Shown here piece by piece: positions 1,581 to 17,102 of a stretch of 22,404 nucleotides of DNA. Source of the stretch: a virus. Positions within the stretch are counted from its first letter, which is position 1. The number at the start of each line of letters is the position of its first letter. Made by a program: the position numbers and the translations under genes. The notes beneath the pieces were generated by a model that was given only the letters and a program-made list of their open reading frames with translations, searched no databases and had not been told where the DNA came from. The stretch lies in the IMG/VR virus record IMGVR_UViG_3300033149_003493, positions 1 to 22,404 of that record; one strand, written 5' to 3'.

Positions 1581-1635
1581 TTTTTATCTCCTTTCCCATT
1601 TTTTTAAATAAAAAGGTAAAGAACTTCTTATTTGT

Positions 1636-1782
1636 TCATCTCTTCTCCAACTCTTTTTCAAAATTATTTAGACATTCAATAGCTTTATAAATTAACTCTC
1701 TTTGTTTCTTTCGAGAACCAATAAGAGCTAATTCAAGAAACCTATAAGCCTCTTTGAGATAGTATTTAGAATCCCCGTCCAT
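1636..1782 (-). CDS. hypothetical protein, 48 aa, helical
   Basis: This short frame begins at ATG 1782 and ends at TGA 1636-1638. The product starts MDGDSKYYLKEAYRFLELAL and ends EKELEKR. It looks like one long amphipathic helical hairpin, with regular L/I/A spacing and many charges. A GGAG site sits seven bases before the ATG. The first 17 bases overlap the end of the upstream zinc-ribbon gene in another frame. I do not recognise a family. Support comes from the ribosome binding site, the coherent amino-acid composition and the fact that it fills what would otherwise be an unusual gap in the operon. A helical small binding or anti-host protein is possible but unproven. Confidence 0.6.
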   Translation of the reverse strand: MDGDSKYYLKEAYRFLELALIGSRKKQRELIYKAIECLNNFEKELEKR

Positions 1783-1948
1783 TCATTTTCTCCAAACATC
1801 TTTTACATATTTTCTTTTCAGATTCTATTTCCCAGCCAAATGTAATCTTATTATCATTATTATACACTTTTTTCCTTCGCTTGTCAACAATAAAATTAAC
1901 TTTTTCTTTAGGTTTTGAAGATTTTCCGCATTTATCACACACAAACAT
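1766..1948 (-). CDS. small zinc-ribbon protein, 60 aa
   Basis: The product is a 60-residue protein with two CxxC knuckles, C4-C7 near the start and C48-C51 near the end, the layout of a one-domain zinc ribbon. Between them lies a basic stretch containing VDKRRKKVYN. It probably binds zinc structurally and may contact nucleic acid or protein. No finer function can be read from the sequence. Its ATG overlaps the TAA of the upstream regulator gene (TAATG), so it is coupled to the regulator. Two coupled genes, helix-turn-helix followed by zinc ribbon, head the early operon, which fits a regulatory role without proving it. Confidence 0.7.
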   Translation of the reverse strand: MFVCDKCGKSSKPKEKVNFIVDKRRKKVYNNDNKITFGWEIESEKKICKRCLEKMNGRGF

Positions 1949-2295
1949 TAAAATTTCCTTCTTATTTTGTATTTTTTTTCAAGATATTCATAACTTATTG
2001 TTTCAATACTTTCTTCTGTGTCAAAATAATTCTCTCGACTAAATGTTTCTCCTAAATTAGTTATTCTCCAAATATGATTATGTAAATTATCTCTCTCTCT
2101 TCGAGATACATTCCTTATTCCTTCAAATCTTTCCCAGGCGTCAGGATGATTTCTCTTAAATCTTTCCAACCTTTTTTTAACAGCAATTTCTGAAATTCCT
2201 AATTTTTCAGCCACTTCTTTTATTTTCAATCCTTCACCCAGAGGCCCTGGTGTGATTAACAATAATACTTCTATTTGCTTCTTTGTCGGTTTCAT
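1948..2295 (-). CDS. helix-turn-helix transcriptional regulator-like protein
   Basis: The product has 115 residues. Residues 23-47 (LKIKEVAEKLGISEIAVKKR) form a clear helix-turn-helix of the sigma-region-4/LuxR/MarR-like class. A hydrophobic helix precedes it and a charged, presumably DNA- or protein-binding tail follows. It is the first gene of the leftward operon. The A of its ATG lies where transcription from the promoter at 2302-2330 should begin, so the message would be leaderless. A regulator encoded first in an operon and facing a divergent intergenic region is a usual place for an early switch protein. I cannot tell whether it represses, activates or replaces host factors. I saw no convincing operator dyad over its own promoter. 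Confidence 0.75.
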   Translation of the reverse strand: MKPTKKQIEVLLLITPGPLGEGLKIKEVAEKLGISEIAVKKRLERFKRNHPDAWERFEGIRNVSRRERDNLHNHIWRITNLGETFSRENYFDTEESIETISYEYLEKKYKIRRKF

Positions 2296-2301
2296 AGCAT
2301 C

Positions 2302-2330
2302 ATTATAACAAAAACCAAATTACAAGTCAA
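2302..2330 (-). promoter_or_regulatory. sigma70-type leftward promoter
   Basis: On the minus strand TTGACT (2330-2325) is followed by a spacer of exactly 17 bases (2324-2308) and a perfect TATAAT (2307-2302). The -35 box differs from consensus at one base. The predicted first transcribed base is 2295, which is the A of the regulator's ATG (2295-2293). This leaves no room for a ribosome binding site upstream. Confidence 0.8.
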
Positions 2331-2470
2331 GTGAAAAATTTGAAAAAATAAAATATTTTTTCCTAAAAAATATAAGTCAAAGATGCCTAAAAACATATAC
2401 TAAATGGGATGGCTGATAGAGAGACGTATGTTATTTGACAAATATATAATGATTTATTTATTTATGGGAC

Positions 2471-2624
2471 TTTCTATGACAACGGGATTGGCGACTTAAG
2501 GCCCATATTTAGACAGGATATGGGCTTTCCCAGAGGGAATCTTGGCGACCCGACTTTATACTGACAAAGTATAAAAAATCAGCTAAACTTGAAGTCAACT
2601 AAGTTTGGTTGATTTACCTGACAA
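2471..2624 (+). ncRNA. candidate structured RNA, unknown class
   Basis: Three strong hairpins follow one another. The first pairs 2498-2508 with 2518-2528 (core GCCCATAT/ATATGGGC, loop of 9). The second pairs TTTATACT (2555-2562) with AGTATAAA (2568-2575, loop of 5). The third is a 14-bp stem pairing AATCAGCTAAACTT (2577-2590) with AAGTTTGGTTGATT (2601-2614). A smaller TTCCC/GGGAA hairpin (2527-2537) competes with the base of the first, and CGGG/CCCG (2483-2486, 2549-2552) could close the 5' domain. The third stem needs two G-U pairs and the first needs one. These are valid on plus-strand RNA and would be A-C mismatches on the other strand, so the element is probably RNA read rightward. An 8-base direct repeat TTGGCGAC (2488-2495, 2542-2549) lies inside. 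The ends given are approximate. It does not match any RNA family that I can name. Confidence 0.5.
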
Positions 2625-2644
2625 GGGCAACGGCTCTATACCTC

Positions 2645-2674
2645 TTGATAGATTGTTTAATAAATAAATATAAT
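2645..2674 (+). promoter_or_regulatory. candidate rightward promoter
   Basis: TTGATA (2645-2650) is separated by 18 bases from a perfect TATAAT (2669-2674). The -35 box matches consensus at five of six positions. Transcription would start near 2681 and run into the terminase and head genes. The surrounding DNA is very AT-rich, so chance -10 boxes are common here. The spaced pair is the best rightward candidate I found. Confidence 0.5.
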
Positions 2675-2750
2675 TATTATATCAAAAGTATATTAGTCTT
2701 TTATTATATACCATATAAATAATATATAATATATAATATAATATATTATT
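2652..2750. other. AT-rich block, possible unwinding element
   Basis: By hand count only 7 of these 99 bases are G or C, about 93% A+T. It includes a dyad AATAATATAT (2718-2727) / ATATATTATT (2741-2750) with a 13-base spacer. It is flanked by the arms of the 12-bp inverted repeat and lies between divergent operons. An origin or regulatory melting region would fit. No iteron array or DnaA-box cluster was seen. Confidence 0.4.
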
Positions 2751-2850
2751 TTGTCAGGTAAAGAATAAAAGACAGAAGTCGCGGTACGTAAATAGAAAAG
2801 TAAAATAAGTCCGATAATGAAAGAATAGTAATTGTTGAAAAATACTTCTA

Positions 2851-3042
2851 ATGTATCGAAAGTTAAAACATTGTGATTGTTGTAAACGATGGTTGGATAT
2901 AAGGAATTTTCTAAAAAGAGAAGACAGAGAAGGATATTATTCTTGGTGTTTTGATTGTATGAAGGAAAGAGGCAGAACTGGGGATTATCCGCCTTTGAGG
3001 GAAAGAGGAGGTGGAACGATAGATTTAGGGGATAGAGACTAA
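2851..3042 (+). CDS. stand-alone zinc finger resembling the N-terminus of Endo VII-type HNH proteins
   Basis: The product is 63 residues with C8-C11 and C33-C36 zinc ligands. It matches in order and spacing the N-terminal finger of the HNH gene in this window (C8, C11, C34, C37). Shared features are the basic K-x-C start, an LD..NF step between the cysteine pairs and a DGY/EGYY turn before the second pair. The nuclease domain is absent; after the finger comes only a short Arg/Gly-rich tail. It could be a remnant of a decayed homing endonuclease or a small DNA-binding protein in its own right. The start at 2851 lacks a good ribosome binding site. The stop is five bases before the small terminase start. 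Confidence 0.55.
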   Translation: MYRKLKHCDCCKRWLDIRNFLKREDREGYYSWCFDCMKERGRTGDYPPLRERGGGTIDLGDRD

Positions 3043-3046
3043 TAAC

Positions 3047-3643
3047 GTGGCTAATATACCAAAAAAGAAGTTTGAAATAAAGAAAAGGGCAAGATTCGAT
3101 GCATCCTGGCTTCCTGTAATTCAAAATCTTACTGCGTTAGGATTAAATGAAAGTGATATAGGAGTAATCCTTGGTTATACTGGAAAGAATGCCAGGGATT
3201 GGCTTAATAATTTAAAGAAAAACCATCCAGAAGTAAAGGATGCTTGGGAATTAGGTAAAAGAATAGCTGATGTTCAGTTAGTAACCAAAGCCTTTCTTGC
3301 TGCAACTGGATATGATTATAAGCAAGAGAAAGTAAAATATAAAGCAGTAACAAAATACGATGGTGATAAGCCTTATACTGATTGGGTTGAAACAGAACGG
3401 GAAGAAGTTTTAAAGCACGCTAAATCTGACCCTGCTGTTTTGAAATTTTTGTTGTGTAATAGACTTCCTGAATTTTTCTCTGAAACTAAAAGATTGGAAA
3501 TTGATAAAACAATTTTGAGTCTTGAGGGAAAAGATATGGAGGCAGAGATTAAAGCTTTTGCCGGTCGTCTTTTTGAGATTGCTGATAATAAAACGATAGA
3601 TGCTGAATTTGTGGATAAGGAAGCAGATGAAGCTACCAGATAA
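3047..3643 (+). CDS. terminase small subunit
   Basis: The product has 198 residues and starts with GTG at 3047. TerS recognises the packaging site on phage DNA and regulates the large subunit. Residues about 28-55 (GLNESDIGVILGYTGKNARDW) form a helix-turn-helix-like DNA-binding segment. The following region with AATGYDYKQEKV resembles the 'A..YDY.E..v' stretch of small terminases, and SDPAVLKFLLCNRLPEFF matches the typical 'DP.a..f.L.nR.P..w' element. Position supports the call, because the large-terminase ATPase gene overlaps its end by 17 bases. No close ribosome binding site precedes the GTG; AGGGGAT lies about 14 bases upstream. Sequence identity between TerS families is low, so the exact family is uncertain. 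Confidence 0.75.
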   Translation: MANIPKKKFEIKKRARFDASWLPVIQNLTALGLNESDIGVILGYTGKNARDWLNNLKKNHPEVKDAWELGKRIADVQLVTKAFLAATGYDYKQEKVKYKAVTKYDGDKPYTDWVETEREEVLKHAKSDPAVLKFLLCNRLPEFFSETKRLEIDKTILSLEGKDMEAEIKAFAGRLFEIADNKTIDAEFVDKEADEATR

Positions 3644-4541
3644 TCCAAAAGCATTTTATGATTTAATTCCAACGGATATTCAAGAAAATCTGAAATTTAG
3701 GATTAGACTGCATAATTTACTTGCAAAAGATAAAGGGCTGCAAGATTTTTATTTAGGATTATGTTTAGAATATTTTCCGATATTATTTTCAAGTTGTTTT
3801 TGGACATATAATCCACAAAAGCCACCAGGAGAAAGAAATCAACCGTTTATTTTAAGGCCAAAACAAATTGAGACTGTTAATGTTTTGGATTGGTGTGTTA
3901 AAAATGAAAACGATTTTGCAATAAATAAAAGTAGAAAAGAAGGTGCTTCGGAGATTATTGTTAAATATTTTGTTGGGTATGCTCTTCTAAACGAAGATAC
4001 ACATTTTATTTTAGGTTCTCGAACAAAAGAACTTGTTGACAATATTGGAGACCCTACTACTTTATTTGCCAAAGCAGATTATACTCTTAACTCTTTACCT
4101 TCTTGGTTAAAAAAGCGGATTAGATATAATCCTAAAACAGACAGAAAAGATATGCAATTAAAGATAAGGGCTACTAATTCTTCTTTATCTGGTTCAACAA
4201 CGAATGAAAGTTTTAGTGCTGGCAGTAGGGCAACCGCATTATTGTTAGATGAGAATGGCAGAATTTGGCCTCTCAATTTAGCTGAATCTATCGAAGGTTC
4301 TGTACACGATATTTCAAATTGTGTTATTTATAATTCTACTCATTGGTTTGGAGAGAATCATCCGTTTAATAAAGCTATTCATAGAAAATCAACAAAAGTT
4401 GTTACTCTTTTTTGGTGGGAAAATCCAGAGAAGGCAAAATTTCTTTATTCAACTCCTGAACCTGGAGTTGTAGAATTGCTTGATGTTGAACGATATAAAG
4501 AAAATTATCCTGAATTATTTGATTATGCAGAAAAAGACTAA
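3627..4541 (+). CDS. terminase large subunit, N-terminal ATPase part (split gene)
   Basis: This 304-residue protein is only the motor half of TerL. It has the adenine-binding Q-like motif FILRPKQ (73-79), a variant Walker A KSRKEGASE (101-109), Walker B ALLLDE (204-209) and a coupling segment YNSTH (235-239). It stops after DYAEKD at 4541. The nuclease domain that follows in ordinary TerL is encoded 450 bases on, in another frame. I choose the start at 3627, because AAGGAAG lies just upstream of it and it gives a sensible N-terminus. The longer frame from 3600 has no such site. The 17-base overlap with TerS suggests coupling. The ATPase motifs are intact, so the protein is probably made and would have to work with the separate nuclease. 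Confidence 0.85.
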   Translation: MKLPDNPKAFYDLIPTDIQENLKFRIRLHNLLAKDKGLQDFYLGLCLEYFPILFSSCFWTYNPQKPPGERNQPFILRPKQIETVNVLDWCVKNENDFAINKSRKEGASEIIVKYFVGYALLNEDTHFILGSRTKELVDNIGDPTTLFAKADYTLNSLPSWLKKRIRYNPKTDRKDMQLKIRATNSSLSGSTTNESFSAGSRATALLLDENGRIWPLNLAESIEGSVHDISNCVIYNSTHWFGENHPFNKAIHRKSTKVVTLFWWENPEKAKFLYSTPEPGVVELLDVERYKENYPELFDYAEKD

Positions 4542-5013
4542 AATTTGTAAAAAATGCAAAAAAGAGTTAGATTTTAATTCTTTTTATAAAAACAAAGATG
4601 GAAAAGACGGGTATCGAAATGTGTGCAAAATTTGTTCACGAAAATCTCAACGAGATTATAAACGGAATAATTATAAAAAGAATCCTGAATATTATAAAAA
4701 AGCAGTAAATAAATGGAGAAAAAATAATCCTAAAAAAGTGAAAAAAACAAAGAAAAATTGGCAATTGAAATCTGATTATGGGATTACATTGGAACAATAT
4801 AATGAGATGTTTCAAAAACAACAAGGATGTTGTGCTGTTTGCGGTAGACATCAATCTGAGTTAAAAAGAGCTTTAGCCGTTGACCACAATCATAAAACAG
4901 GACAGTTAAGAAAATTGCTTTGTGATAGATGTAATGTTGGTCTTGGCTTTATTGAAGATTCAGAATATTTGAAGAAAGCGATAGAATATTTGAATGAATT
5001 CAATTTTATTTAA
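4525..5013 (+). CDS. endonuclease VII-like HNH nuclease inserted in the terminase
   Basis: The product is 162 residues from ATG 4525. An N-terminal zinc finger (C8, C11, C34, C37) is followed by a very basic linker (about 40-80). A His-Me/HNH domain of the recombination-endonuclease-VII type follows: YGITLEQY, zinc cysteines 103/106 and 133/136, the catalytic DHNH at 120-123, and KTGQLRKLLCDRCNVGLG with the conserved Asn 137. It overlaps the ATPase gene by 17 bases and the nuclease-half gene by 20. It occupies almost exactly the break in TerL. Such freestanding HNH genes act as mobile homing nucleases that cut alleles lacking the insert. Neither the 4525 start nor the alternative TTG/ATG at 4480/4483 has a well-spaced ribosome binding site. 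Confidence 0.85.
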   Translation: MQKKTKICKKCKKELDFNSFYKNKDGKDGYRNVCKICSRKSQRDYKRNNYKKNPEYYKKAVNKWRKNNPKKVKKTKKNWQLKSDYGITLEQYNEMFQKQQGCCAVCGRHQSELKRALAVDHNHKTGQLRKLLCDRCNVGLGFIEDSEYLKKAIEYLNEFNFI

Positions 5014-6097
5014 ACATAATAAACCGATTAGGATTGTTGTTGATAAACTTCCTAAACATTTAAGAAAACTCTTTATTGCAGATGGCGGATTGAATTTACC
5101 TTTACCCTTACGTTCTCCTTGGCATGATGAAGAAGAGGAAAAGAGAAGAGGGAATAAAAGAGATTTTTATTGTAATATATGGGGAACTCCTATTGGTTCT
5201 TCTGACTCTGTATTTGATGTTAATATTTTAGCTAAAATTGAAAAAAGATGTAAGCCTCCTAATTATGTTGGAGAGATTATTTTTGATTATGATGACTTTG
5301 GTAAAATCTCAACGAGTAATTTTATAGTTAATCACGGCAGAAAAAGATTAAAATGGTGGGGAGAACTTAAAAACAATCGTCCTAATCAAGAACATAATTA
5401 TATTATTGGATGCGACCCTTCTTATGGAATGGGTTCTTCTAATTCAGTTGCAAGTATCTATGATGTGAATACTTCTGAAGAAATAGGAAAATGGGTTTGT
5501 CCTAATACCCCACCAGAAGATTTTGCTGACCTTGTAGTTGCTTTAAGTAGATGGATAGGAGGGATAAATAATCCCTTCATAATTTGGGAGAATAATGGAG
5601 GACACGGAACTAATTTTACTAATCGGCTTGTTTGGCATCGTTATCCAAGATTATATACACAAAAAACCGAAGATACTAAAATTAGAAAAATTGGTAGAAG
5701 ATATGGATGGAGAAGCAATAAAAATACTAAAGAACAACTTTTAGGAGAACTGGGAGTAGCTTTAAGTGGAGGATTATTAGATAAAAAATATAAAGCAATA
5801 AAAATTTATGATATAGACCTCTTAAATGAATTAAGAGATTATATGTATGTTGGAAGTGAAATAACGTCAAGTGCGAAAGCTGATTTATCTTCTGGTGCAA
5901 GAGAAAGACACGGAGATAGAGTTATAGCTGCTGCTCTTTGTGTTTTAGGGACAAGGGATGCTCCTCCTGGATTTTGGGAAAGAAAAAATGATGCTCCCTT
6001 CGGAACTTTCGCCCATAGGTTTTTTGAAGAAAAGAAAAAAGACCAAGAAAAAGAAACAAAAGAAAAATTTAGAAGAAGGGAATACTTATTTAGATGA
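4994..6097 (+). CDS. terminase large subunit, C-terminal nuclease part (split gene)
   Basis: The product has 367 residues and is the headful/cos-cutting nuclease half of TerL. It begins in the linker to the nuclease domain: RSPWHDEEE at about 40-48 matches the conserved 'RSPW.D.E' step before this domain. The RNase H-fold acidic residues follow: D141 in IIGCDPSYG, E199 in FIIWENNGGHG, and D308 in ERHGDRVIAAA. The C-terminus is highly basic. In frame, a TGA (4991-4993) immediately precedes the ATG, so this part cannot be read through from upstream. No ribosome binding site is apparent, which suggests coupling to the HNH gene. Its stop overlaps the portal start (ATGA). Confidence 0.85.
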   Translation: MNSILFKHNKPIRIVVDKLPKHLRKLFIADGGLNLPLPLRSPWHDEEEEKRRGNKRDFYCNIWGTPIGSSDSVFDVNILAKIEKRCKPPNYVGEIIFDYDDFGKISTSNFIVNHGRKRLKWWGELKNNRPNQEHNYIIGCDPSYGMGSSNSVASIYDVNTSEEIGKWVCPNTPPEDFADLVVALSRWIGGINNPFIIWENNGGHGTNFTNRLVWHRYPRLYTQKTEDTKIRKIGRRYGWRSNKNTKEQLLGELGVALSGGLLDKKYKAIKIYDIDLLNELRDYMYVGSEITSSAKADLSSGARERHGDRVIAAALCVLGTRDAPPGFWERKNDAPFGTFAHRFFEEKKKDQEKETKEKFRRREYLFR

Positions 6098-7833
6098 GCC
6101 AAAGAGTTATTGACCTATACGAACATAATTTGAAACAAAGTTTTCCAGCTAAGTTGCAAATAATGGCAAAGGCTTGGCGGGAAAAGTGGAAAGAGCCTTT
6201 AAGAAAAAATCAGAAATTGCTTAAATTGTGGGCTTCTGGATATTTTTCTTCAACTTATGATAGGGAACATTTGATAAATCTTATTGATAGAGCTTTATTT
6301 ACTATTGTCCCTTATCTTGTAGAAGGAAATCCTGAAGTCCTTGTGGAAACCAAAATTCCTAATATCAGACCGTGGGCAAAAACAGTTCAACTGGGATTAA
6401 ATTTTCTTATGGAGAAATATAACTTTGCTGAAAATGTTTTAATCCCTGTTGTGATAAACTCAATGTTTGGAGCTGGAATAACCAGAACAATTTTTGAATA
6501 TGATAGGGTTATTTCTTTAGATAATGATGTTATTAAAGCTGGTTCTCCAAGAGTAATAGTTATTGACCCTGCGAATTATATTGGAGACCCTTCGGCAAAA
6601 AGACGTAGTGATTTTGTGATTGAGGGAGATATTTATAGGCTTCCAACAGATTATGCAAGGGATTTATTTTCAAAATATGCTGACCATATTAAACCTGATT
6701 GTAAATTAGCTACAAAATTTGGCGCAGAAGAAATATCTTCTCCGAATTTTGATTACAATAGAATGTCATTAAGGAGTTACAGCACCTTTATTGATATTTA
6801 TTGTAAAGATGATAATACAATTAAAACAATTATGCCAGAAGGAAAGAAGGCTGTTATTTTAAGAGAGGTTGAATGGGATGGCCCTCGTGGCGGGCCTTAT
6901 GATTATTTGGCTTATCGGTGGTATCCTGATACTCCTATTCCCCTTCCCCCTATGTGGTTTATTCACGACCTTGATGTTACTATGAATGTGTTAGCCAAAA
7001 CTGCAAGGGAACAAGCAGAAAGTCAAAAGAACATTGTTTTCGTTCCTCCTGAAGCAAGAGAGGCTGGAAAGAAAATTGTTAATGCTAAAAACTTAGATGT
7101 TTTAGAAGCATCTTCTACTGAATTGATTAAGGCTATTTCTCTTGGTGGAGTAAATCCGGAGAATTATACTTGGATGGGTTTTGCAGAAAATGCTTTTACA
7201 AAAACAGGAGTAAATGCAGATGTAGTTGCAGGAAGGGGTGCACAATCTCCTACTTACGGTCAGGAAAAGATGATTTTTCGTAATGCCAGTAGAATAATTG
7301 AAACAATGTATAATCGTTTTCACTCTTTTACTGAGTCTATTTTGAAGAAGTTTGCTTGGGGGATATTAACAGACCCTTCTGTTTATATTCCAGATATTAT
7401 TAAGATACCTGGAGTTGGAGAACTGCCGGTTGTTCTTTCTCAGGCTGATAAAGTTGGAGATTTTTATGATTTGATTTTCAAAATAATTCCTTATTCAACA
7501 CAGCGAATATCTCCAGAAGAGAAATATGCAAAAACTATGCAGTTTGCTACACAGTGGTTATTACCAACAATGCAAATTGCTGCTGCTCAAGGTGCTCAAT
7601 TGGATATACCTCTTGTAACAAAGATTATGGCCTCTTATTTTGGTCTTGATAATTTTGAACATTATTATAAAACTGTTGTACCTACTAATGTTGATAATGC
7701 TCCTTTTATGATGTTTCCAAAGAAAAATAAATTTGGACAAACTTCTGACGCTTTTGGAACAAACCAACAAAACAGGGAAGCTAATTTTCAACAACAGCAG
7801 GAACGCACTGCTTTGGAGGAGGAAGAAGAATGA
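6094..7833 (+). CDS. portal protein
   Basis: This 579-residue protein follows the terminase directly and has the composition and layout of a portal, the dodecameric ring at the capsid vertex through which DNA passes. An N-terminal helical segment is followed by WASGYFSSTYDREHLINLIDRA. A wing region contains VIVIDPANYIGDPSAKRRSDF, where 'DP...DP.A...D' is characteristic of podovirus- and siphovirus-like portals. A long helical stem/crown segment contains EQAESQKNIVF and SLGGVNPENYTWMGF. The C-terminus is Gln-rich and ends in a run of Glu. Those Glu codons (GAGGAGGAAGAA) also supply the ribosome binding site for the next gene. The start overlaps the terminase stop by four bases. Length is normal for a portal. 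Confidence 0.85.
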   Translation: MSQRVIDLYEHNLKQSFPAKLQIMAKAWREKWKEPLRKNQKLLKLWASGYFSSTYDREHLINLIDRALFTIVPYLVEGNPEVLVETKIPNIRPWAKTVQLGLNFLMEKYNFAENVLIPVVINSMFGAGITRTIFEYDRVISLDNDVIKAGSPRVIVIDPANYIGDPSAKRRSDFVIEGDIYRLPTDYARDLFSKYADHIKPDCKLATKFGAEEISSPNFDYNRMSLRSYSTFIDIYCKDDNTIKTIMPEGKKAVILREVEWDGPRGGPYDYLAYRWYPDTPIPLPPMWFIHDLDVTMNVLAKTAREQAESQKNIVFVPPEAREAGKKIVNAKNLDVLEASSTELIKAISLGGVNPENYTWMGFAENAFTKTGVNADVVAGRGAQSPTYGQEKMIFRNASRIIETMYNRFHSFTESILKKFAWGILTDPSVYIPDIIKIPGVGELPVVLSQADKVGDFYDLIFKIIPYSTQRISPEEKYAKTMQFATQWLLPTMQIAAAQGAQLDIPLVTKIMASYFGLDNFEHYYKTVVPTNVDNAPFMMFPKKNKFGQTSDAFGTNQQNREANFQQQQERTALEEEEE

Positions 7834-8501
7834 GAAAGAGATTTTTAATACCCTTGATGTTATCTTTTTTGTTATTGTTTAGTATTAAGATAAACGAATA
7901 TATTCATCCTGTTTTTCCAGAAGCTGTTAAAATAAAAGTTCAAGGAATTTATTTTTCTGAATGGGGAGGAGGTTTAGAAAGTTGGGAAGGGTCTGCTGTT
8001 TTTATAGATGATAATTTATTGTTAACTGCTGGACATTGTGTAAAGGATGCAAATAATATAACTATTGTTTATGCAGATGGTAGAGAATGTAAAGCTGCAA
8101 GTTGGTATTTGCTTGATGAGTATATTACAGATTTAGGTATTATTAGGGTAGATACTCCTGAAATTGAACCGAAAGCAGTATTTTCTAATCCTAAAGTCGG
8201 AGAGAGTGTTATAGTTATCGGTAATCCATTTGGGTATTGGCCGGTAAGAACTGAAGGAATTATTTCTGCTGTAAATATAGATGAAGATTTTTTTGGTGAA
8301 AAGAATTTAGTTTTAACAGATGCTGCTATAAATCCAGGCAATTCAGGTTGCCCAGTTTATAATAAAAGAGGGTATATATTGGGTATTGTTGTGGGTGCAA
8401 TTAGAGGAGCACAAGGAAATAACTTTATTGTACCTGCTAAAATTTGTAAAATTGTTATAGATAAATATAAAATAGAGAAAGAATTAGAGGAGATGGATTA
8501 A
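7830..8501 (+). CDS. HtrA/trypsin-like serine protease with N-terminal signal anchor
   Basis: The product is 223 residues. After basic residues, 5-19 form a hydrophobic signal peptide or anchor (FLIPLMLSFLLLFSI). A chymotrypsin-fold protease domain follows with the complete triad: H69 in LLLTAGHC, D101 in TDLGII, S172 in DAAINPGNSGCPV. The last motif is the hallmark of the DegP/HtrA (S1C) group, although the usual GNSGGP carries Cys in place of the second Gly. There is no PDZ domain; the protein ends soon after the protease domain. It sits between portal and scaffold, where phages often encode a prohead protease, but the signal anchor would send it to the membrane or out of the cell. The ATGA overlap with the portal shows coupling. 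Confidence 0.85.
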   Translation: MRKRFLIPLMLSFLLLFSIKINEYIHPVFPEAVKIKVQGIYFSEWGGGLESWEGSAVFIDDNLLLTAGHCVKDANNITIVYADGRECKAASWYLLDEYITDLGIIRVDTPEIEPKAVFSNPKVGESVIVIGNPFGYWPVRTEGIISAVNIDEDFFGEKNLVLTDAAINPGNSGCPVYNKRGYILGIVVGAIRGAQGNNFIVPAKICKIVIDKYKIEKELEEMD

Positions 8502-8738
8502 GTGTTTGAAAACATAAAATCAGGTGAATTTACTTTTTGTTCTGTATGTGGGAAAATTTGTCATTTAGGGCCAAAAGAGTTTATTTGTAAAAAATGTTCG
8601 TTTTCACATCCTATTGATAGGTGGGGAACTTTAACAGAAGAAGATTTTTTATATGCGAGTTTGGAATGTGATATATCTGATATTATAAAGAAATATAGAC
8701 AAAAATTAAATGTTTTAAGAAACGAGGAATTAAAATGA
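8502..8738 (+). CDS. small zinc-ribbon protein, 78 aa
   Basis: The start is GTG at 8502, directly after the TAA of the protease gene, with an AGAGGAG site upstream. Cysteines at 13, 16, 29 and 32 (CSVC and CKKC) form a zinc ribbon; C20 is extra. A helical tail rich in Lys/Leu follows. I do not recognise a specific family. It ends with an ATGA overlap with the next, very basic gene. It is the first of several Cys-rich mini-proteins between portal and scaffold. Confidence 0.65.
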   Translation: MFENIKSGEFTFCSVCGKICHLGPKEFICKKCSFSHPIDRWGTLTEEDFLYASLECDISDIIKKYRQKLNVLRNEELK

Positions 8739-8983
8739 GACTTAGAAGGAAAAAGAGAGGCAAGGGTAGTATTTCCAAAGCTACTGCTGCAAAAGAAGAG
8801 CACGAAAAAGTAATGAAAAAAACTCCTCCTGGCGAAGGAGGGCGTTTTGCACATTTGAAAAAAGTTTTAGGGAAACGAAAAAAGATTAAAACTCCTGGAG
8901 CTTTGGCTGCTTGGATTGGTCGTAGAAAATATGGTCAAGCCAGGTTTCAAAAAATGGCAGCAAGAGGTAGAAGGAGGAGTTAA
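8735..8983 (+). CDS. small basic phage protein ('AAWIG.KKYG' type)
   Basis: The product is 82 residues and highly basic (MRLRRKKRGK at the start, RGRRRS at the end). The middle, GEGGRFAHLKKVLGKRK then TPGALAAWIGRRKYGQARF, matches a common small protein of uncultured phages in which a 'G.RF..L...L' segment precedes 'ALAAWIGRKKYG...F..M.A.GR'. Its function is unknown to me. The charge suggests nucleic-acid or capsid-interior contact. AGGAATTAAA precedes the ATG, and the four-base overlap with the upstream gene shows coupling. It is always a small late gene in the phages where I recall the pattern, and that recollection is not verified here. Confidence 0.7.
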   Translation: MRLRRKKRGKGSISKATAAKEEHEKVMKKTPPGEGGRFAHLKKVLGKRKKIKTPGALAAWIGRRKYGQARFQKMAARGRRRS

Positions 8984-8985
8984 TT

Positions 8986-9180
8986 ATGCCAGCAGTTAGT
9001 AAATCACAACAGATAGCAGCAGCTTTAGCTCTTGCAGCAAAAAGAGGGAAATTTCCTGTGGATAAACTTAAAGGTTCTGCTTTGAGTATGTATAATAGTA
9101 TGACTGTGGAAGAACTTGAGCATTATGCAAAAACAAAAAGAAAGGGATTACCAAAGAGACTACGGAGGAAAAAGAAATGA
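8986..9180 (+). CDS. DUF3008 family protein
   Basis: The product is 64 residues, and nearly its whole length follows the DUF3008 pattern. It opens MPAVSKSQQIAAALALAAKRG, continues with a VDKLKGSALSMYNSM segment and ends ELEHYAKTKRKGLPKR. The known pattern is 'MPA.SKAQQ..A..ALA.KRG..P...LKG....M...M...EL...A.TK.KGLP'. The family is found in phages and bacteria and has no assigned function. A basic tail RLRRKKK is added at the end. The codons for that tail (CGGAGGAAAAAG) provide the ribosome binding site of the next gene, which starts with an ATGA overlap. Confidence 0.85.
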   Translation: MPAVSKSQQIAAALALAAKRGKFPVDKLKGSALSMYNSMTVEELEHYAKTKRKGLPKRLRRKKK

Positions 9181-9419
9181 AGAGAAAATGGGGACAGAAG
9201 ATTTACATAGAATGGATTGATGCAATAGAAAAGTCAGGATGGAAGTCAACATCACAAGTGATAAAACCTGATGATGAAGTTTTGTGTTTTACAAATGCTT
9301 TTTATATTGGTGAAGATAAAAATTTTATAAAAACTGCTCATACAATAGGAAAAGATATTAAAAATGATGTTACTGGTATATTATGGATACCAAAGAAAAC
9401 AATAACAAAAATTAAATAA
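9177..9419 (+). CDS. small phage protein, 80 aa, beta-rich
   Basis: The product is 80 residues. It begins with IEWIDAIEKSGW, carries a middle GEDKNFIKTAHTIGKD and ends ILWIPKKTITKIK. This layout ('V.W.Ds....gW', then 'g.li.e..d.i.la', then 'i.IPk..I..i') is shared by many small phage proteins of unknown function that sit in late operons. The start overlaps the DUF3008 stop, and the GGAGG ribosome binding site lies inside that gene. No catalytic or metal-binding residues stand out. Confidence 0.7.
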   Translation: MKRKWGQKIYIEWIDAIEKSGWKSTSQVIKPDDEVLCFTNAFYIGEDKNFIKTAHTIGKDIKNDVTGILWIPKKTITKIK

Positions 9420-9429
9420 GGGGAAATAA

Positions 9430-9813
9430 ATGGCTGCTGCTTGTAATGTTTCTGTTATAGCTGAAGTAACTGGTCTTGGAAAAGAGCTTTCTTTTATAGA
9501 AAAGTTTTCAACTACAACTCCTGAAAAAGTAATGTATAATTATGACGAAATTGATACTGCTGAGGAGGAGGCTTTAGATGTTGGTCAGATTTTAGAAGAT
9601 GGTGGTACTGTTGAATTTATTATAATAAAAAATCTTGATAGTACAAACTATGTTGAGATTGATTGTAATTATACTGCATCGACTTTTCGTGCAAATATTT
9701 ATCTTGCTGCTGGGGATGTAGCAATGTTTAAGCCTTCCGGTACGGTTTATGCAAAAGCGAATACTGGTGCTGTTCTTGTAGAATATGTGGTAATTGGTAA
9801 AAATGCTGCATAA
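9430..9813 (+). CDS. probable virion structural protein, beta-rich
   Basis: The product is 127 residues, mostly beta-strand-forming. It contains IIIKNLDSTNYVEIDCNY, then an AAGDVAMFKPSGTVYAKANTGAVLVEYVVIG ending. The pattern 'IkN.d.tnyVeig....... L..Ge...f......iYa.antg...veyvv.G' occurs in small structural proteins of tailed phages, in neck, decoration or tail-tip positions. The precise role cannot be assigned. It resembles in style the two small beta proteins at 16094-16804. A GGGGAAATAA site precedes the ATG. Confidence 0.6.
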   Translation: MAAACNVSVIAEVTGLGKELSFIEKFSTTTPEKVMYNYDEIDTAEEEALDVGQILEDGGTVEFIIIKNLDSTNYVEIDCNYTASTFRANIYLAAGDVAMFKPSGTVYAKANTGAVLVEYVVIGKNAA

Positions 9814-9822
9814 AATGCAGCA
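9804..9822 (+). other. hairpin spanning a stop codon
   Basis: TGCTGCAT (9804-9811) and ATGCAGCA (9815-9822) form a perfect 8-bp stem with a three-base loop. The TAA stop (9811-9813) of the 127-residue gene lies at the stem-loop junction. No T-run follows, so it is not a standard terminator. Confidence 0.4.
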
Positions 9823-9853
9823 AAATTAGAAAAGGTAATTAAAGGGAATTAGT

Positions 9854-10225
9854 ATGCCAAAATATACTGCCAGATGTATTGATTGTAAAAAGGTTTTTAA
9901 TTATTTTTCTACTATTGCTGAAAGAAACAATTCACCTAATTGTGAATGTGGTGGTAAAACAAAAAGAGATGTAGAATCTGAATTATCAAATTCAGGCAAT
10001 TTTAATGAACTTAATAAAGATAGAGAAAGATTATCAAATGCTCTTGCAATTTATCCTTCTCAATTAGAAGAAGCAAGAAAAGTTCATCCAGGGGCAGAAT
10101 GGGTTAAAAAAGGACATAGGCTTTGTATGAAGATAAAGAATAGAGCAGAGAAATTACAGAGAATGAAAGAGCGGGGCTTTTGTGAATATCCGCCTAATCT
10201 TTTTGACCAGCTCCAAGGAGATTAA
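9854..10225 (+). CDS. FmdB-like zinc-ribbon protein with C-terminal extension
   Basis: The product is 123 residues. The first 40 are an FmdB-type zinc ribbon: MPKYTARCIDCKKVF, then a TIAE segment, then C30 and C32 in NCECGGKTKRD, matching 'MP.Y.y.C..CG..F........C..CGG...R'. A helical region with NELNKDRERLSNALAIYPSQ and KVHPGAEW follows. This pairing of a short zinc ribbon with a PSQ/hPg segment is familiar from phage late regions; its function is not known. GGGAATTAGT precedes the start. It begins a row of four adjacent Cys-pair proteins. Confidence 0.7.
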   Translation: MPKYTARCIDCKKVFNYFSTIAERNNSPNCECGGKTKRDVESELSNSGNFNELNKDRERLSNALAIYPSQLEEARKVHPGAEWVKKGHRLCMKIKNRAEKLQRMKERGFCEYPPNLFDQLQGD

Positions 10226-10226
10226 A

Positions 10227-10370
10227 ATGTTATGTTCTAATTGTGGTAAAAAATTAACTAATAAACAAACATATTTTATTGTACAATCTTTTATTAACCA
10301 TCGAAAGAAAGTATTAGAAAAAATAAAAAGCCCAGTATGTAAAAAATGTAAAGGAGATAGAAATGTATAA
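10227..10370 (+). CDS. small zinc-ribbon protein, 47 aa
   Basis: I place the start at ATG 10227, which follows an AAGGAGATTAAA site one base after the upstream stop. The in-frame ATG at 10182 lies inside the upstream gene and has no such site. The product has CSNC (C3, C6) and CKKC (C38, C41) and is otherwise basic and helical, a minimal zinc ribbon. It overlaps the next gene by eight bases. The function is unknown. Confidence 0.65.
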   Translation: MLCSNCGKKLTNKQTYFIVQSFINHRKKVLEKIKSPVCKKCKGDRNV

Positions 10371-10668
10371 TACCAAAGAGTGCCCTGTCTGTCATTGTAA
10401 TTTCCGTCCAACGGAAAAAAATCCAGATAAATGTGATTTATGTACAAGGGAGGGAAGAGAACCTCCTCAACCAAAAAAAGATATTTTGGTTGAATCTTTA
10501 TCTGAAAAGAAAATTCAAAGATTGATTGATGAGGCAATTGGGAGACATATTAAACAAGACCACGAAGTTGAAAAGAAAATTACATATAAAAAGAAATGTG
10601 TTAAATGTGGGGAGGATTTTGAAGCAAAAAGTACAGCGACAAAATACTGTGATATTTGTAAGAAATGA
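10363..10668 (+). CDS. double zinc-ribbon protein, 101 aa
   Basis: The product has 101 residues with Cys pairs at both ends: C7/C10 and C24/C27 in the N-terminal third, C79/C82 and C96/C99 at the C-terminus (KKCVKCGEDFEAKS, YCDICKK). A helical, charged middle (LSEKKIQRLIDEAIGRHIKQ) links the two ribbons like a dumb-bell. The overall form resembles adaptor-like DNA- or RNA-binding proteins, but I recognise no family. AAGGAGATAGAA precedes the ATG. It overlaps the previous gene by eight bases. Confidence 0.65.
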   Translation: MYNTKECPVCHCNFRPTEKNPDKCDLCTREGREPPQPKKDILVESLSEKKIQRLIDEAIGRHIKQDHEVEKKITYKKKCVKCGEDFEAKSTATKYCDICKK

Positions 10669-10679
10669 GGAGATAGAAT

Positions 10680-10859
10680 ATGTGTGAGCATAATAAGCTA
10701 ATTGCGATAGATGATTATACGGGTATCCAAGGGAATTTTGAAAACAAAACTAATTCGCAAATCTGTGGAATGTTTGTTTATAAAAAATATAAATGTGAAG
10801 ATTGTGGTAGAATTATAACAGTATTAAATGCCGTTGTTGAGGAGATAAAAAATGTCTGA
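10680..10859 (+). CDS. small Cys-rich protein, 59 aa
   Basis: This frame opens at ATG 10680, seven bases after an AGGAG site, and ends at TGA 10857-10859. The product begins MCEHNKLIAIDDYTG. It contains a CEDCG knuckle (C39, C42), with C2, H4 and C29 as possible further zinc ligands. It overlaps the scaffold start by eight bases, the same spacing as the junction between the two zinc-ribbon genes upstream. The size is just below usual gene-calling limits, but the ribosome binding site, the overlap and the Cys pattern support a real gene. It is the fourth Cys-pair protein in a row. Confidence 0.6.
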   Translation: MCEHNKLIAIDDYTGIQGNFENKTNSQICGMFVYKKYKCEDCGRIITVLNAVVEEIKNV

Positions 10860-11766
10860 AATAGAAAATCAGGAAACAGAGAATCCAGAAGTAGAAAGTC
10901 AAGAAACTGATATTGAAACAAAGGAAATTGAGGATATAGAGGAAGAAAAAACAGACGCAGAAAAAGAGGTTGAAGAAAAAGAGAATCTTGTTACTCGTTT
11001 AATAAATAAAGTAATGGGGAAAAAGGAAGAGGAGGAGAATGAGGAAGAGGGTGATTTTCTCCCTGATTCTTTTGTGGAAGCAGCAAGAAAAGCTGGGATG
11101 ACAGACGAAGAAATTATTGAAACCTCTTCAGATTTTAGTGATGAAGAATTAGAGGAAATGGCTTCGCTTTTAGCAGAGATGGGGACAGAGGAAAGTTTGG
11201 AAGAGTCTGAGGAACTTCCAGAAAAGGAAACAGAGGAAGTAAAAGAAGTTTCTAAAGAGGATGCTTCTGAATTAGCAAAAATAAAGCAAGAACTTGACAA
11301 CCTAAAGAAAGAATTAGGTAAAGTCAAAGAAGATGAAACTGAAAAGTTTCTCATTGATTTAGAGGATTATGCCAACAAAGCGTTTGATGAGGCAAGTAAG
11401 GATTTTGAGGTTTTTGGTTTAACAAAGGATTTACCAAAATTTACATCTGGCCCAAATAAAGGAAAATATCTTCCTTTAAGTCCGGCATTTCAGGCAAGAA
11501 GTCAAGTATATGACGTATATCTGAAATTTGTTCAGCTCGGACAAGAAAAAGAAGATGCAATGAAAAATGCTTTGGCTTGGTATAAAGGATTGAATTTGGA
11601 AAAAGATGTTGAAAGAAAGGCTATTCAAAGATTAAAAAAGAATGAAAAAAGACTTTCTGCAAAACATCAGGATAAGGATTTGGTAAGGGAATATGTGGAT
11701 GAAGATGAGGCTAAAGCTGATATAGTAAGACAAATTGCAGCTAAAGCCGGTGTTAAGATGGATTAA
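10852..11766 (+). CDS. capsid scaffolding protein
   Basis: The product is a 304-residue, very acidic and helical protein immediately before the major capsid gene, the usual place for a scaffold. Residues 1-130 are Glu-rich and probably disordered. Residues about 135-165 (ELAKIKQELDNLKKELGKVK) form a coiled coil with heptad spacing. The C-terminal region is basic and helical (KNEKRLSAKHQDKDLV; end RQIAAKAGVKMD) and could bind the capsid shell. Scaffolds line the inside of the procapsid and leave or are degraded before DNA fills it. Whether the upstream serine protease plays any part in that is unknown. GGAGATAAAA precedes the ATG. Confidence 0.8.
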   Translation: MSEIENQETENPEVESQETDIETKEIEDIEEEKTDAEKEVEEKENLVTRLINKVMGKKEEEENEEEGDFLPDSFVEAARKAGMTDEEIIETSSDFSDEELEEMASLLAEMGTEESLEESEELPEKETEEVKEVSKEDASELAKIKQELDNLKKELGKVKEDETEKFLIDLEDYANKAFDEASKDFEVFGLTKDLPKFTSGPNKGKYLPLSPAFQARSQVYDVYLKFVQLGQEKEDAMKNALAWYKGLNLEKDVERKAIQRLKKNEKRLSAKHQDKDLVREYVDEDEAKADIVRQIAAKAGVKMD

Positions 11767-11793
11767 AATTAGTGAGAAAGGAAAGGTAATACT

Positions 11794-12894
11794 ATGGCAA
11801 GTCCAAGTTTTGAACAAGCGTTGGATATTAAGAAAGCTACACTTGAGGCTATTTTGAGAAAGAACCCTCCTCTGGCGACTTATGCTTATCCAACGTATCA
11901 ATTTTTTAACACTTATTTTAAGGGAAATGTTCAGCAAACTGGTGGGGATGAATTAGTTGGTAATGTTACTCTTGCTTCAGAGGGTAATGTAACGACTGGT
12001 AGTTTTTATACTCCTGACTCTTTAGTGAAAAAGAATATCAATCAAGAATATAAATTGAAGTGGAGACGTTCTTCTGCTGGTATGCTTTATAGTTTGATTG
12101 AGCAGGATATTAACAAAGGCCCGTTGCAGATTTATAATACAACGGAACAACAGGAAAAGTCAATGATAAAGGATTTGGTTGAAGAAGTTATGTTAAGATG
12201 TGTTCTTGGGCCTACCAGTGCAACGGATACCGATAATCCTTATGGTATATCGAGCTGGCTTTCTCTTGGAACTACTGGTCAAACTGGTGGTTTTAATGGT
12301 TATTATGGCTGTTACAATGATGGAAATACTCCTGGCAATACTTTTGCGAAGGCTGGGGTTACTTGTACATCTACAGTCAATCCAGATTTTGCAAATTATT
12401 TTGCTGACCACGATGGTAACATTGATGATAGCTTATTGACTATTCTTGATTTAGCTAATTTGGAACTTAATTTTCAACCTCCTGTTATTCCAAGAACTTT
12501 GGAAATGGAAAGAGTTACTTTTGCAACCTATACTAATAAAAATGTTATTAGTAAATTAAATTCTTTTTATGCTAAATCAGATGATAATATGGGCTATCAT
12601 CCTAATAGTCATTATGGTACTCCAACATTTAATGGTATTCCAATGGTGTATTGTCCACCTTTGAATACTGCAAATACTTCAGTTTATGGAACTGACCCTA
12701 TTTTCGGGGTTAACCATAATGTATTGTATCCTGTGATTTTGAAAAACTGGAACTTTAGAGTAGTAACTCGTCCGGTTGCTGATAATCATACGATGGAAAG
12801 TTTGTTTATTGATTTGGTTTATCAGAATTGGTGCAATTCCAGTCCTAAATACGCAGGCTATTTAATTACGAACTCTACCGCAACTCCTTCGTAA
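11794..12894 (+). CDS. major capsid protein
   Basis: The product has 366 residues, a typical size for an HK97-fold shell protein. It follows the scaffold and precedes a decoration gene. The N-terminal helix (SFEQALDIKKATLEAILRKN) leads to a beta region. WRRSSAGMLYSLIEQDINKG and EKSMIKDLVEEVMLRCVLGP fit the E-loop/spine-helix region. ISSWLSLGTTGQTGGFNG resembles a segment seen in capsid proteins of T7/P22-like and many uncultured phages. The C-terminal domain has VILKNWNFRVVTRP. There is no obvious N-terminal delta domain to cleave, consistent with the separate scaffold. The fold call rests on context and motif layout, not on alignment. An AAAGG site precedes the start. Confidence 0.8.
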   Translation: MASPSFEQALDIKKATLEAILRKNPPLATYAYPTYQFFNTYFKGNVQQTGGDELVGNVTLASEGNVTTGSFYTPDSLVKKNINQEYKLKWRRSSAGMLYSLIEQDINKGPLQIYNTTEQQEKSMIKDLVEEVMLRCVLGPTSATDTDNPYGISSWLSLGTTGQTGGFNGYYGCYNDGNTPGNTFAKAGVTCTSTVNPDFANYFADHDGNIDDSLLTILDLANLELNFQPPVIPRTLEMERVTFATYTNKNVISKLNSFYAKSDDNMGYHPNSHYGTPTFNGIPMVYCPPLNTANTSVYGTDPIFGVNHNVLYPVILKNWNFRVVTRPVADNHTMESLFIDLVYQNWCNSSPKYAGYLITNSTATPS

Positions 12895-12965
12895 TAAAAG
12901 AGTTTATAAATGAATAGTAAAAATGGATTATTTGGATAATTGTTTAGAAAGAAAAGGAGAATAAT

Positions 12966-14201
12966 ATGTCTATTCCTATGACTTATGGAAACCCTCGTGC
13001 TCAAAGAATTAGAGTTTATTATGAGGGTACAGATACTTTATATGAAGGTAGCCCAGTTTGTTACAACTATGATACTACCAGTAACTGGTATGGAGTAGAT
13101 ACTTATGATAATTCGGAAAGTTCCACAACTACGGATGGGTATCAAAATGAAGGTAAGTATCTACGAGTAGAAGTACCTTCTGCGGACAATGCTGAATTTT
13201 TTGCTGGTGTTGTGGCTGAAGGTTTTGGTGGTATTACGAATCCAGGTTTGATTGATATTTATGTTCCAAATGGGGCTATTGTTCCTGTTTATACAGATAA
13301 GAGCATTACGATAAAAGACCCATTATATCTTGAACACGGGGAAATTACTCTTGTAAATGCGACACAAGTTGGTATGGGTGTTTGTGTTGCTGAAGCAGTT
13401 GAGACCGTTGACCGTTCAAGTACAGCAGGTGTTGTATTGGCGAGATTGCACGAACCCTCTGAAAGAACTGTTTATAATGGAACTCTTGGAATTGCTCCAA
13501 GTGAGGCTCTTTGGGAAGATTGTCCTTGGGAAGAAATAGAGAGAAATCCTGGTCTCGGTATCGTCTATTTCAACGATTTTATGGGTACGGAAAATCTTGC
13601 TTCAGGCGAAGGTTGGACAATTACTCAAGTTACATCTGGTACAATGTCTTTGCTTGCTGCTGAGGGTGGAGCATTGCACGTTGATTCAGGTGGACACGCT
13701 TCGGCAGATGATGGTGTTCAAGGACAGTTGTTGAATTGTAGATTTCTTCCTGCTGCTGGCAAAACTATTTGGTTTGAGGCCAGAGTTAAGATGAATGACG
13801 CAACTGACCAGTATTATATTGGTCTTGCTGAAACTGATACTACTCTTATTGATGGTGGTGTAATAGATGATGCAAGTGATAAATGTGGATTTTTCCATCA
13901 CGCTGCATCTACTGATAATAAGATTAGTTGTATTTGTTCTCGTGCTGATGCTGATGAAACTACCGCTAATGTTGCAGATAATACCGATGGTACTTATATG
14001 ACAGTTGGTTTCAGGATTTCAGGTTTGACTTCTGTTGAATTTTATGTTAATGGTGTTTTGGTAGAAACCAGTTCAACTACTACAAAGATTCCTAATTCTG
14101 CTATGTGTTTAAGTGTTGTTGCTCAAGTTGAAGCAACAGATGAAGATGCTGAAATGGATATTGATTGGGTAAAGATTGCACAGTTAGGCGCAAGAGCATA
14201 A
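12966..14201 (+). CDS. head decoration protein fused to a LamG-like domain
   Basis: The product is 411 residues in two parts. Residues 1-175 are a beta-rich region containing SITIKDPLYLEHGEITL and a 'GVCVAEAVETVD...AGVVLARL' strand series. This is the pattern of capsid decoration/DUF2190-like proteins, where a cargo phrase 'dpLy......' precedes 'G.a.e.v.....g.v.vrL'. Residues about 190-411 look like a concanavalin/LamG jelly roll: FNDFMG at the start, FEARVKM, MTVGFRISG, VEFYVNGVLVE and a final MDIDWVKIAQ. The second domain would be displayed on the capsid surface and might bind glycans. A strong AAGGAG site precedes the ATG after about 70 non-coding bases. Confidence 0.75.
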   Translation: MSIPMTYGNPRAQRIRVYYEGTDTLYEGSPVCYNYDTTSNWYGVDTYDNSESSTTTDGYQNEGKYLRVEVPSADNAEFFAGVVAEGFGGITNPGLIDIYVPNGAIVPVYTDKSITIKDPLYLEHGEITLVNATQVGMGVCVAEAVETVDRSSTAGVVLARLHEPSERTVYNGTLGIAPSEALWEDCPWEEIERNPGLGIVYFNDFMGTENLASGEGWTITQVTSGTMSLLAAEGGALHVDSGGHASADDGVQGQLLNCRFLPAAGKTIWFEARVKMNDATDQYYIGLAETDTTLIDGGVIDDASDKCGFFHHAASTDNKISCICSRADADETTANVADNTDGTYMTVGFRISGLTSVEFYVNGVLVETSSTTTKIPNSAMCLSVVAQVEATDEDAEMDIDWVKIAQLGARA

Positions 14202-14236
14202 TTTTTAGTCAGCAAATTTATTTTTAGGAGACAGTT

Positions 14237-14518
14237 ATGTTAATAGATTTTAGTAGTAAGTTTTATGATTTAGATGGAGAGGTAATAAAGGATAAAGACA
14301 AGGAGGTTACGCTTGGTTCTGTTTGTGCAAATGCTCTTTTAGTTCCACAAAAAGAAGAAGAAGGAGCAATTAAGGCTAATAAATATGATTTAGCCTTGAA
14401 GGTTTATAAAGCTTCCGAAGTTGAGGTATCCGCCGAAGATGTTGTTCTTCTAAAGAAGGCAATAAATAAGGCTTATGCTCCTCTTATTGTGGGCCAGGCG
14501 TTTAGGATGTTAGAATAA
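14237..14518 (+). CDS. conserved small phage protein, 93 aa
   Basis: The product is 93 residues. 'LTLG..CANALL' (TLGSVCANALLVPQ) is followed by KANKYDLALKVYKASEVEVSAEDVVLLKKAINKAYAPLIVGQAFRMLE. The order 'vc.nALl......K..rY.LA.kI.....v.l.aEdi.liK..i...y.plivGqa...Le' recurs in small late proteins of many tailed phages. No function is assigned to it that I can name; assembly chaperone or head-completion roles have been guessed from position. AGGAGACAGTT precedes the start. It is the last gene before the double-hairpin element. Confidence 0.7.
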   Translation: MLIDFSSKFYDLDGEVIKDKDKEVTLGSVCANALLVPQKEEEGAIKANKYDLALKVYKASEVEVSAEDVVLLKKAINKAYAPLIVGQAFRMLE

Positions 14519-14526
14519 TTATTTTT

Positions 14527-14589
14527 GAGACGGAGATTCTCTGTCTCCTTAGATTTGGTTGGAGGCCCGAAAGGGCTTCCTTCCAAATC
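14527..14589 (+). other. tandem RNA hairpins between head and adaptor genes
   Basis: Hairpin 1 pairs GAGACGGAG (14527-14535) with CTCTGTCTC (14539-14547), nine pairs including one G-U. Hairpin 2 pairs GATTTGG (14552-14558) with CCAAATC (14583-14589), then a symmetric TT/TT internal loop, then GGAGGCCC (14561-14568) with GGGCTTCC (14573-14580), closed by a GAAA tetraloop (14569-14572). The G-U pairs and GNRA loop are valid on the plus strand. No T-run follows either hairpin, so a simple intrinsic terminator is unlikely. It may be an mRNA processing or stability element. Confidence 0.6.
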
Positions 14590-14606
14590 GTTTATGAGGG
14601 ATAAGA

Positions 14607-16063: not shown

Positions 16064-16093
16064 TTAAACTAAAACATTTAATGGAGAAAAATT

Positions 16094-16447: not shown

Positions 16448-16459
16448 AGGAGGTAAAAC

Positions 16460-16804: not shown

Positions 16805-16806
16805 CA

Positions 16807-17061: not shown

Positions 17062-17102
17062 TACCCAAAGGAACTCCAGTAGATTTATATGAGGAAACTT
17101 TT

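Follow-up and report, generated by a model that had tools for sequence, protein, structure and literature searches.

A predicted pseudoknotted leader RNA at the head of the packaging operon of an uncultured phage

The usual way of finding structured phage RNAs relies on conserved sequence. In phage lambda the 6S RNA is a noncoding leader of about 200 nt; it separates the late genes from their promoter, and elongation is controlled there. The pRNA of phage phi29 serves a protein-primed phage that is not known to have a TerS/TerL pair. Group I introns, for their part, have a core in which the helices follow one another in the order P3, P4-P6, P7, P3', P8 and P7'. In phage HK022 the put RNA, of about 70 nt and with two stem-loops, is found downstream of the early promoters and is a cis-acting antiterminator that works without a dedicated protein; it suppresses termination in cis via the zinc-binding domain of the RNA polymerase beta' subunit, and it shows that a nascent phage RNA can modify RNA polymerase on its own (excerpts of PMC9378689). 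GOLLD and ROOL are large pseudoknotted phage RNAs of unknown function, from 659 nt to more than 800 nt long, which are often located near tRNA islands (excerpts of PMC12286853). The accessible portions of open-licence papers dealing with phage RNAs beside terminase genes or with leader antiterminators (including PMC2864571, PMC4496710 and PMC4604602) describe no element such as the one reported here.

The window, that is, the whole stretch of DNA that was analysed, comprises the 22,404 bases of one virus record in IMG/VR. A gap of 555 bases separates two divergent genes that start at 2295 (minus strand) and 2851 (plus strand), and it is this gap that houses the element. The leftward gene encodes a possible regulator, with a match to PF08281 Sigma70_r4_2 (26.3 bits against a cut-off of 25.7). 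Rightwards come a 63-aa ORF with four Cys, the small terminase (PHROG 309 terminase small subunit, E 7e-11), a split large terminase and gene 6094-7833, which is called the portal from its place. In the window an endonuclease VII-like gene (4480-5013) separates the two ORFs of the large terminase (3600-6097); in the relative L006 the large terminase is a single uninterrupted ORF of 674 aa.

Relatives were sought in viral contigs with the large terminase, the portal and the regulator (one of these searches covered the best 80 of 324 matches). The contigs L002 and L005 represent a near-identical phage, with 0 differences from the window across 1663-2972. Among the matches listed, the closest non-identical relative is L003/L006 (93% identity in the portal and 82% over the first part of the large terminase), and many further relatives are more distant, at about 37-59% identity. 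The regulator search returned only the window phage and L006, whose orthologue is 69% identical, plus one partial match. No relative was found among 84,980 bacterial and archaeal genomes (genome_contigs) by portal alignment, nor among 50,697 phage records by tblastn with the portal. DNA similarity gave 7 records in the phages collection, each covering no more than 7% of the query and taken as chance, and none among plasmids. The stretches of the window matched by the two ends of the L006 contig (G002, 47.8 kb) overlap (768-881), and this genome therefore probably assembles as a circle.

Table 1. Position of the features in the window, and of the short motif found in more distant relatives.
Feature	Position	Strand	Remarks
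Early leftward gene	1948-2295	-	115-aa protein, possible regulator; sigma-70 region-4-like helix-turn-helix
Leftward promoter	2302-2330	-	TTGACT-17-TATAAT, TG before the -10; 11/12 match; ends beside the ATG at 2295
Conserved DNA block	2400-2448	+	49 bp, directly 5' of the structured domain; 40/49 identical to L006 1392-1440
S1 5' arm	2444-2470	+	26 pairs with 2655-2682, 3 of them G-U; p 0.95; AT-rich
Inner subdomain	2483-2552	+	helix 2483-2494/2542-2552 around hairpins 2500-2526 and 2527-2539; p 0.82-0.98
Stem 1	2500-2510/2516-2526	+	11 pairs, p 0.98
Stem 2	2555-2562/2568-2575	+	hairpin 2555-2575, loop GACAA; 8 pairs, p 0.96
Stem 3	2576-2591/2600-2615	+	hairpin 2576-2615; 16 pairs, p 0.98
S2 5' arm	2613-2626	+	inside S1; partner 2749-2762
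Rightward promoter	2645-2674	+	sigma-70-like, TTGATA-18-TATAAT; 11/12; inside the element
S1 3' arm	2655-2682	+	pairs with 2444-2470
Downstream hairpin	2696-2773	+	AT-rich; z -4.9 on +, -5.4 on -; L006 counterpart 1691-1757
S2 3' arm	2749-2762	+	beyond S1
Start of rightward operon	2851-3643	+	four-Cys ORF 2851-3042, small terminase 3047-3643
56-nt motif (model R1)	L034 6184-6238; L039 203-256; L025 152-206		weakly also L026 6074-6128

A preliminary description had placed a strongly folded plus-strand element between the divergent operons, and the folding analysis agrees with it. On the plus strand 2440-2682 folds at -80.1 kcal/mol (z -8.84), and 0 of 500 dinucleotide shuffles, which control for composition, are as good; the minus strand is weaker (z -3.97). 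In the inner part, 2471-2645, the z values are -5.5 on plus and -1.0 on minus. When 890 segments of 200 nt from both strands of the whole record were compared, the first place was taken by the one starting at 2451 on the plus strand (z -7.0), and the best segment outside the element reached z -5.7 (12401, plus strand). The latter, 12401-12600, lies inside a gene and has z -4.8 on the minus strand. Segment 14501-14700 (z -4.7 on plus) adjoins a terminator-like hairpin at 14527-14547.

The three successive stems expected of about 11, 8 and 14 bp were all recovered, with probabilities of 0.96-0.98, the third having 16 pairs rather than about 14. The plus-strand G-U pairs that had been noticed in them are also there (3, 0 and 3 from the first stem to the third), and amount to 12 of the 87 pairs of the whole 2444-2682 fold, which helps to explain the difference between strands. 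The limits 2471-2624 given at first are too short, since an outer stem (S1) and a helix that crosses it (S2) belong to the element, which reaches from about 2444 to 2762. S1 encloses the three inner stems and closes 239 nt; against its 26 pairs, the longest closing stem in 400 shuffles had 19. S2 contains a perfect 12-bp inverted repeat (2613-2624/2751-2762), and its duplex energy of -20.3 kcal/mol was matched by 4 of 1000 whole-domain shuffles. As S2 crosses S1, the element is likely to be a pseudoknot. The 3' arm of S2 is included in the 3' side of the downstream AT-rich hairpin, where the simple fold pairs 2757-2760 with 2709-2712; this arm therefore competes between two partners and can pair either locally or with the domain. 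An internal direct repeat in the element was not significant (23 of 200 shuffles). The sequence TTGGCGAC, which occurs twice in the element, was considered as a motif and rejected as chance, given that 23 of 24 stretches in viral_contigs and 4 of 4 in genome_contigs fold differently; the remaining viral stretch is the same phage.

The comparison with L006 is the one that carries most of the argument. The two phages share a block of DNA that ends where the structured domain begins, and the alignable sequence stops directly after it, with none inside the element. In a search of 47 gaps the block was found only in the window and in L006, the other 45 scoring 17-23 out of 40, like shuffles, and the exact form of its core pattern is present in no other viral contig. 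We regard it as a candidate non-consensus promoter or operator. As in the window, an outer stem starts in L006 at the end of the block (1434-1448/1665-1679, closing 246 nt); when each phage was shuffled 400 times, no more than 3 shuffles had a stem of 12 or more pairs beginning at this point. A second long-range helix follows, again with its 5' arm inside the first stem and its 3' arm beyond it, and its duplex energy was matched by 2 of 1000 whole-domain shuffles. A position-free search for the best crossing pair over 38 gaps chose 2444..2682 x 2613..2762 for the window and, for L006, 1434..1679 x 1610..1751. With the block held fixed, the summed score of the crossing pair was reached by 19 of 500 and 17 of 500 shuffles, respectively, and is thus only modestly unusual, whereas a best crossing pair whose four ends all came to lie 10 nt or less from those of the other phage appeared in 0 of 500 shuffles, for the window and L006 alike; the evidence consequently rests on position and not on score.

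The pairs themselves were also compared. For S1, eight pairs were followed after aligning the 5' arm by sequence alone, and for S2 eight pairs anchored on the shared letters CAAGG. Each helix gave 5 identical pairs, 1 with a single change, 2 with double changes and 0 broken; for the 16 pairs together these numbers are 10, 2, 4 and 0. S2 has 3 further identical pairs (ACC), and two G-U pairs stay G-U in both phages. When the L006 3' partner was slid by 1-6 bases, no more than 6 of the 8 standard pairs were left in S1, and no more than 5 of 7 in S2 (seven pairs considered). As only two distinct sequences are compared, each double change is one event and gives support rather than proof. The long-range architecture is conserved in this relative with compensating changes. 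Compensatory changes, whose absence from homologues would by the preliminary description have spoken against the element, are present in S1 and S2; for the inner stems no homologue was detected. Their covariance model (R2, covering the inner domain) matched only the window among 87 sources, gave nothing meaningful in L006 with the filters off and among 15 records recovered only the same phage, so that the three inner stems remain predictions from a single sequence. We propose to group the window phage and L006 in one pseudoknot family, having found in both the block, an outer stem at its end, a crossing helix at the same offsets and covariation. Between the element and the four-Cys ORF, L006 has a 28-codon ORF (1823-1909) with an AAAGGAG site, a counterpart of which was not seen when the window sequence was read.

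These results bear on two explanations that need no RNA. According to the first, the stems would be chance products of AT-rich inverted repeats and have no function. Such DNA does yield many inverted repeats (23 pairs in the 555-nt gap), and the gaps of most relatives are ordinary (mean z -0.73). We consider this explanation very improbable, as the dinucleotide shuffles already control for composition (0 of 500) and chance would have to account for the matched positions and the compensating changes of L006.

In the second, the locus would act as DNA, as a cos or pac packaging start, a replication origin or an operator cruciform, and the repeats would only resemble RNA stems. The position just upstream of the small terminase would suit it, and when 2444-2775 is folded as DNA, each strand again does better than its shuffles (z -6.8 and -6.7), from which it follows that folding alone leaves a role as DNA possible. 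The GC skew changes sign in the same kilobase, a change that divergent transcription alone would give. The hexamer TGACAA, chosen after the fact, has 5 of its 12 occurrences in the window within 2436-2756, four of them on the plus strand and several in predicted loops or single strands, and this cluster also speaks for DNA. Nevertheless the fold is asymmetric between the RNA strands (z -8.8 versus -4.0), the two phages retain G-U pairs as such, and in the window, L002, L006 and L019 alike the sequence runs on through this place. A DNA-level element is for these reasons distinctly unlikely.

To the left of the element, the promoter of the regulator puts the start of transcription at about the ATG of the gene, which suggests a leaderless message; L006 has the same promoter (1333-1305) and the same arrangement, and L026 has a perfect 12/12 leftward promoter near the same place. 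On the right, the promoter at 2645-2674 had been described as simply downstream of the element and was found instead to lie within it. The scan of 2850-22404 returned only one other site as good, and that of the plus strand of L006 1200-2150 returned no promoter. No consensus promoter was found 5' of the element; a TTGACA near 2435 had been remarked upon as having no good -10, and the scan likewise reports no promoter there. Terminator-like sites number 0 on both strands of 2200-3100, and the plus strand of L006 1200-2150 has none. With no terminator separating the element from the operon, a transcript entering it would probably reach the packaging genes, and on account of this probable run-on we take the element as a leader RNA acting while it is made. 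An attenuator or riboswitch using an intrinsic terminator was rejected, as 2200-3100 contains 0 sites with a G+C-rich hairpin followed by a T run.

The strong promoter inside the element, absent from L006, is the main complication for a leader. If it drives the operon in the window phage, most of the element is outside the leader and would mainly be a separate RNA. The element could then be a free-standing noncoding RNA acting in trans (a regulator, a host-takeover RNA or a scaffold), transcribed from a promoter of its own within the block or cut from a leader, with the operon starting at 2645-2674. The strength of this promoter (11/12) and its place in the 3' end of the element fit such an RNA, and so does the compact fold, which in both phages begins right after the conserved block. 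On the other hand, no plus-strand terminator comes after the element, the 3' arm of S2 and the downstream hairpin lie beyond the promoter yet within the conserved pairing, and L006 lacks that promoter. We hold a trans-acting RNA to be somewhat unlikely, and prefer the leader.

The element was also compared with the known RNA classes. The preliminary description did not recognise it as any of them, and a cmscan of the window against all 4227 Rfam families gave no match at gathering score, nor did ten relatives. With E values up to 10, window 2300-2850 and 2396-2790 and L006 1380-1830 gave only weak matches, far below gathering, to HIV, microRNA, snoRNA, CRISPR-repeat and S15-leader models and the like, which are taken as chance. 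The Rfam models of GOLLD, ROOL and OLE leave the window unmatched. The element resembles GOLLD and ROOL, as far as the excerpts describe them, in being a folded phage RNA with a pseudoknot, and differs from them in its length of about 320 nt, the lack of a tRNA gene in the window and the lack of an Rfam match.

A packaging RNA had been one of the first ideas for this locus, and an RNA of the packaging motor like the pRNA of phi29, made near the terminase genes, would share with the element the neighbourhood of the small terminase and a compact branched fold. This reading is not supported, and we see hardly any likelihood in it: the pRNA family model gave no match either at gathering or at E up to 10, an ordinary small and an ordinary large terminase are both present, and an RNA of about 320 nt with a pseudoknot differs from the pRNA in length and topology. 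With the group I introns the element has in common the order of the crossing helices, a domain that separates their 5' arms and a hairpin that precedes the final arm. The order P3-P7-P3'-P7' is, however, common to any H-type pseudoknot and is a weak criterion, and the joining segments and the crossing helix are longer here than in the intron core. Topology aside, a group I intron was rejected because Rfam gave no match at E up to 10 (2396-2790; L006 1380-1830) and no gene is interrupted.

Elsewhere in the clade, not every phage has a structured leader at this position. The 47 gaps, hand-picked from ORF outputs, have a mean z of -0.73 on plus and -0.76 on minus, and most of them show nothing unusual. 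The crossing-helix test was applied to 38 of them, nine being set aside by length; 0 of 40 shuffles were as good in five (the window, L039, L132, L038 and L151) and 1 of 40 in L006, and most gaps were ordinary. Two further groups of relatives do have covarying structures at the start of the same operon, which counts in favour of a leader role. L034, L039 and L025 carry just before the small terminase operon a common motif of 56 nt, laid out as a stem, a conserved GUAC, a short hairpin and a conserved UUGGCGAU. A model (R1) built from L034 and L039 and run on 87 sources matched L025 (E 1.4e-4) and, only at E 3.1, L026. A pattern search of viral contigs for the motif of L034 and L039 gave 31 stretches, of which only those two phages were judged real, and Rfam had no match in the carriers L025, L026 and L034. 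The window was rejected as a member of R1, its best score in 2296-2850 with filters off being 5.2 bits (E 0.37). In the other group, L109 (1690-1790) and L114 (5272-5369) have a pair of hairpins where the rightward operon begins, and of their 21 predicted pairs 3 differ on both sides.

The reading that we favour, tentatively and as the likeliest of those considered, is that the element is a structured and fast-evolving 5' leader RNA of the packaging and structural operon, acting in cis. The plus strand of 2444-2762 would encode a pseudoknotted RNA of about 320 nt, in which S1, with its 26 bp, forms the base of a branched domain about 240 nt long and S2 ties the 3' part of this domain to the downstream stretch. 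Its transcription, as a 5' leader, would start from a non-consensus promoter within the block (2400-2441) and might be governed by the sigma-region-4-like protein encoded on the opposite side. While being made it might, less certainly, act in cis by binding or holding RNA polymerase; or else it might switch between the pseudoknot and the downstream hairpin, which the two possible partners of the S2 3' arm would allow. The outcome would be a control of read-through into the late genes.

With slightly more reserve, we suggest that a pseudoknotted RNA about 320 nt long, and of a new class, may head the packaging operon of this uncultured phage lineage, keeping its topology while nearly all of its sequence turns over, and that it may be one of several unrelated structured leaders at the same position across the clade. 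Because the two phages, whose portals are 93% identical, have the RNA shape in common although the sequence within it cannot be aligned, searches of the usual kind would overlook such an element. If the class is real, it would suggest that control of late transcription by RNA only is widespread in the clade and has been missed by sequence-based RNA catalogues.

Among the leaders that are known, the late leader of the lambdoid phages (lambda 6S RNA) differs from the present locus in that no terminator-like site follows the element. The put RNA of HK022 would be the functional parallel. Going by the excerpted description of put, both would be folded RNAs in a phage leader, in a comparable position upstream of the genes that are read. 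The element, of about 320 nt instead of about 70 nt, is larger, pseudoknotted, closed by a 26-bp outer stem and placed before packaging genes. If the RNA controls late transcription by itself, HK022 put would no longer stand alone as an example.
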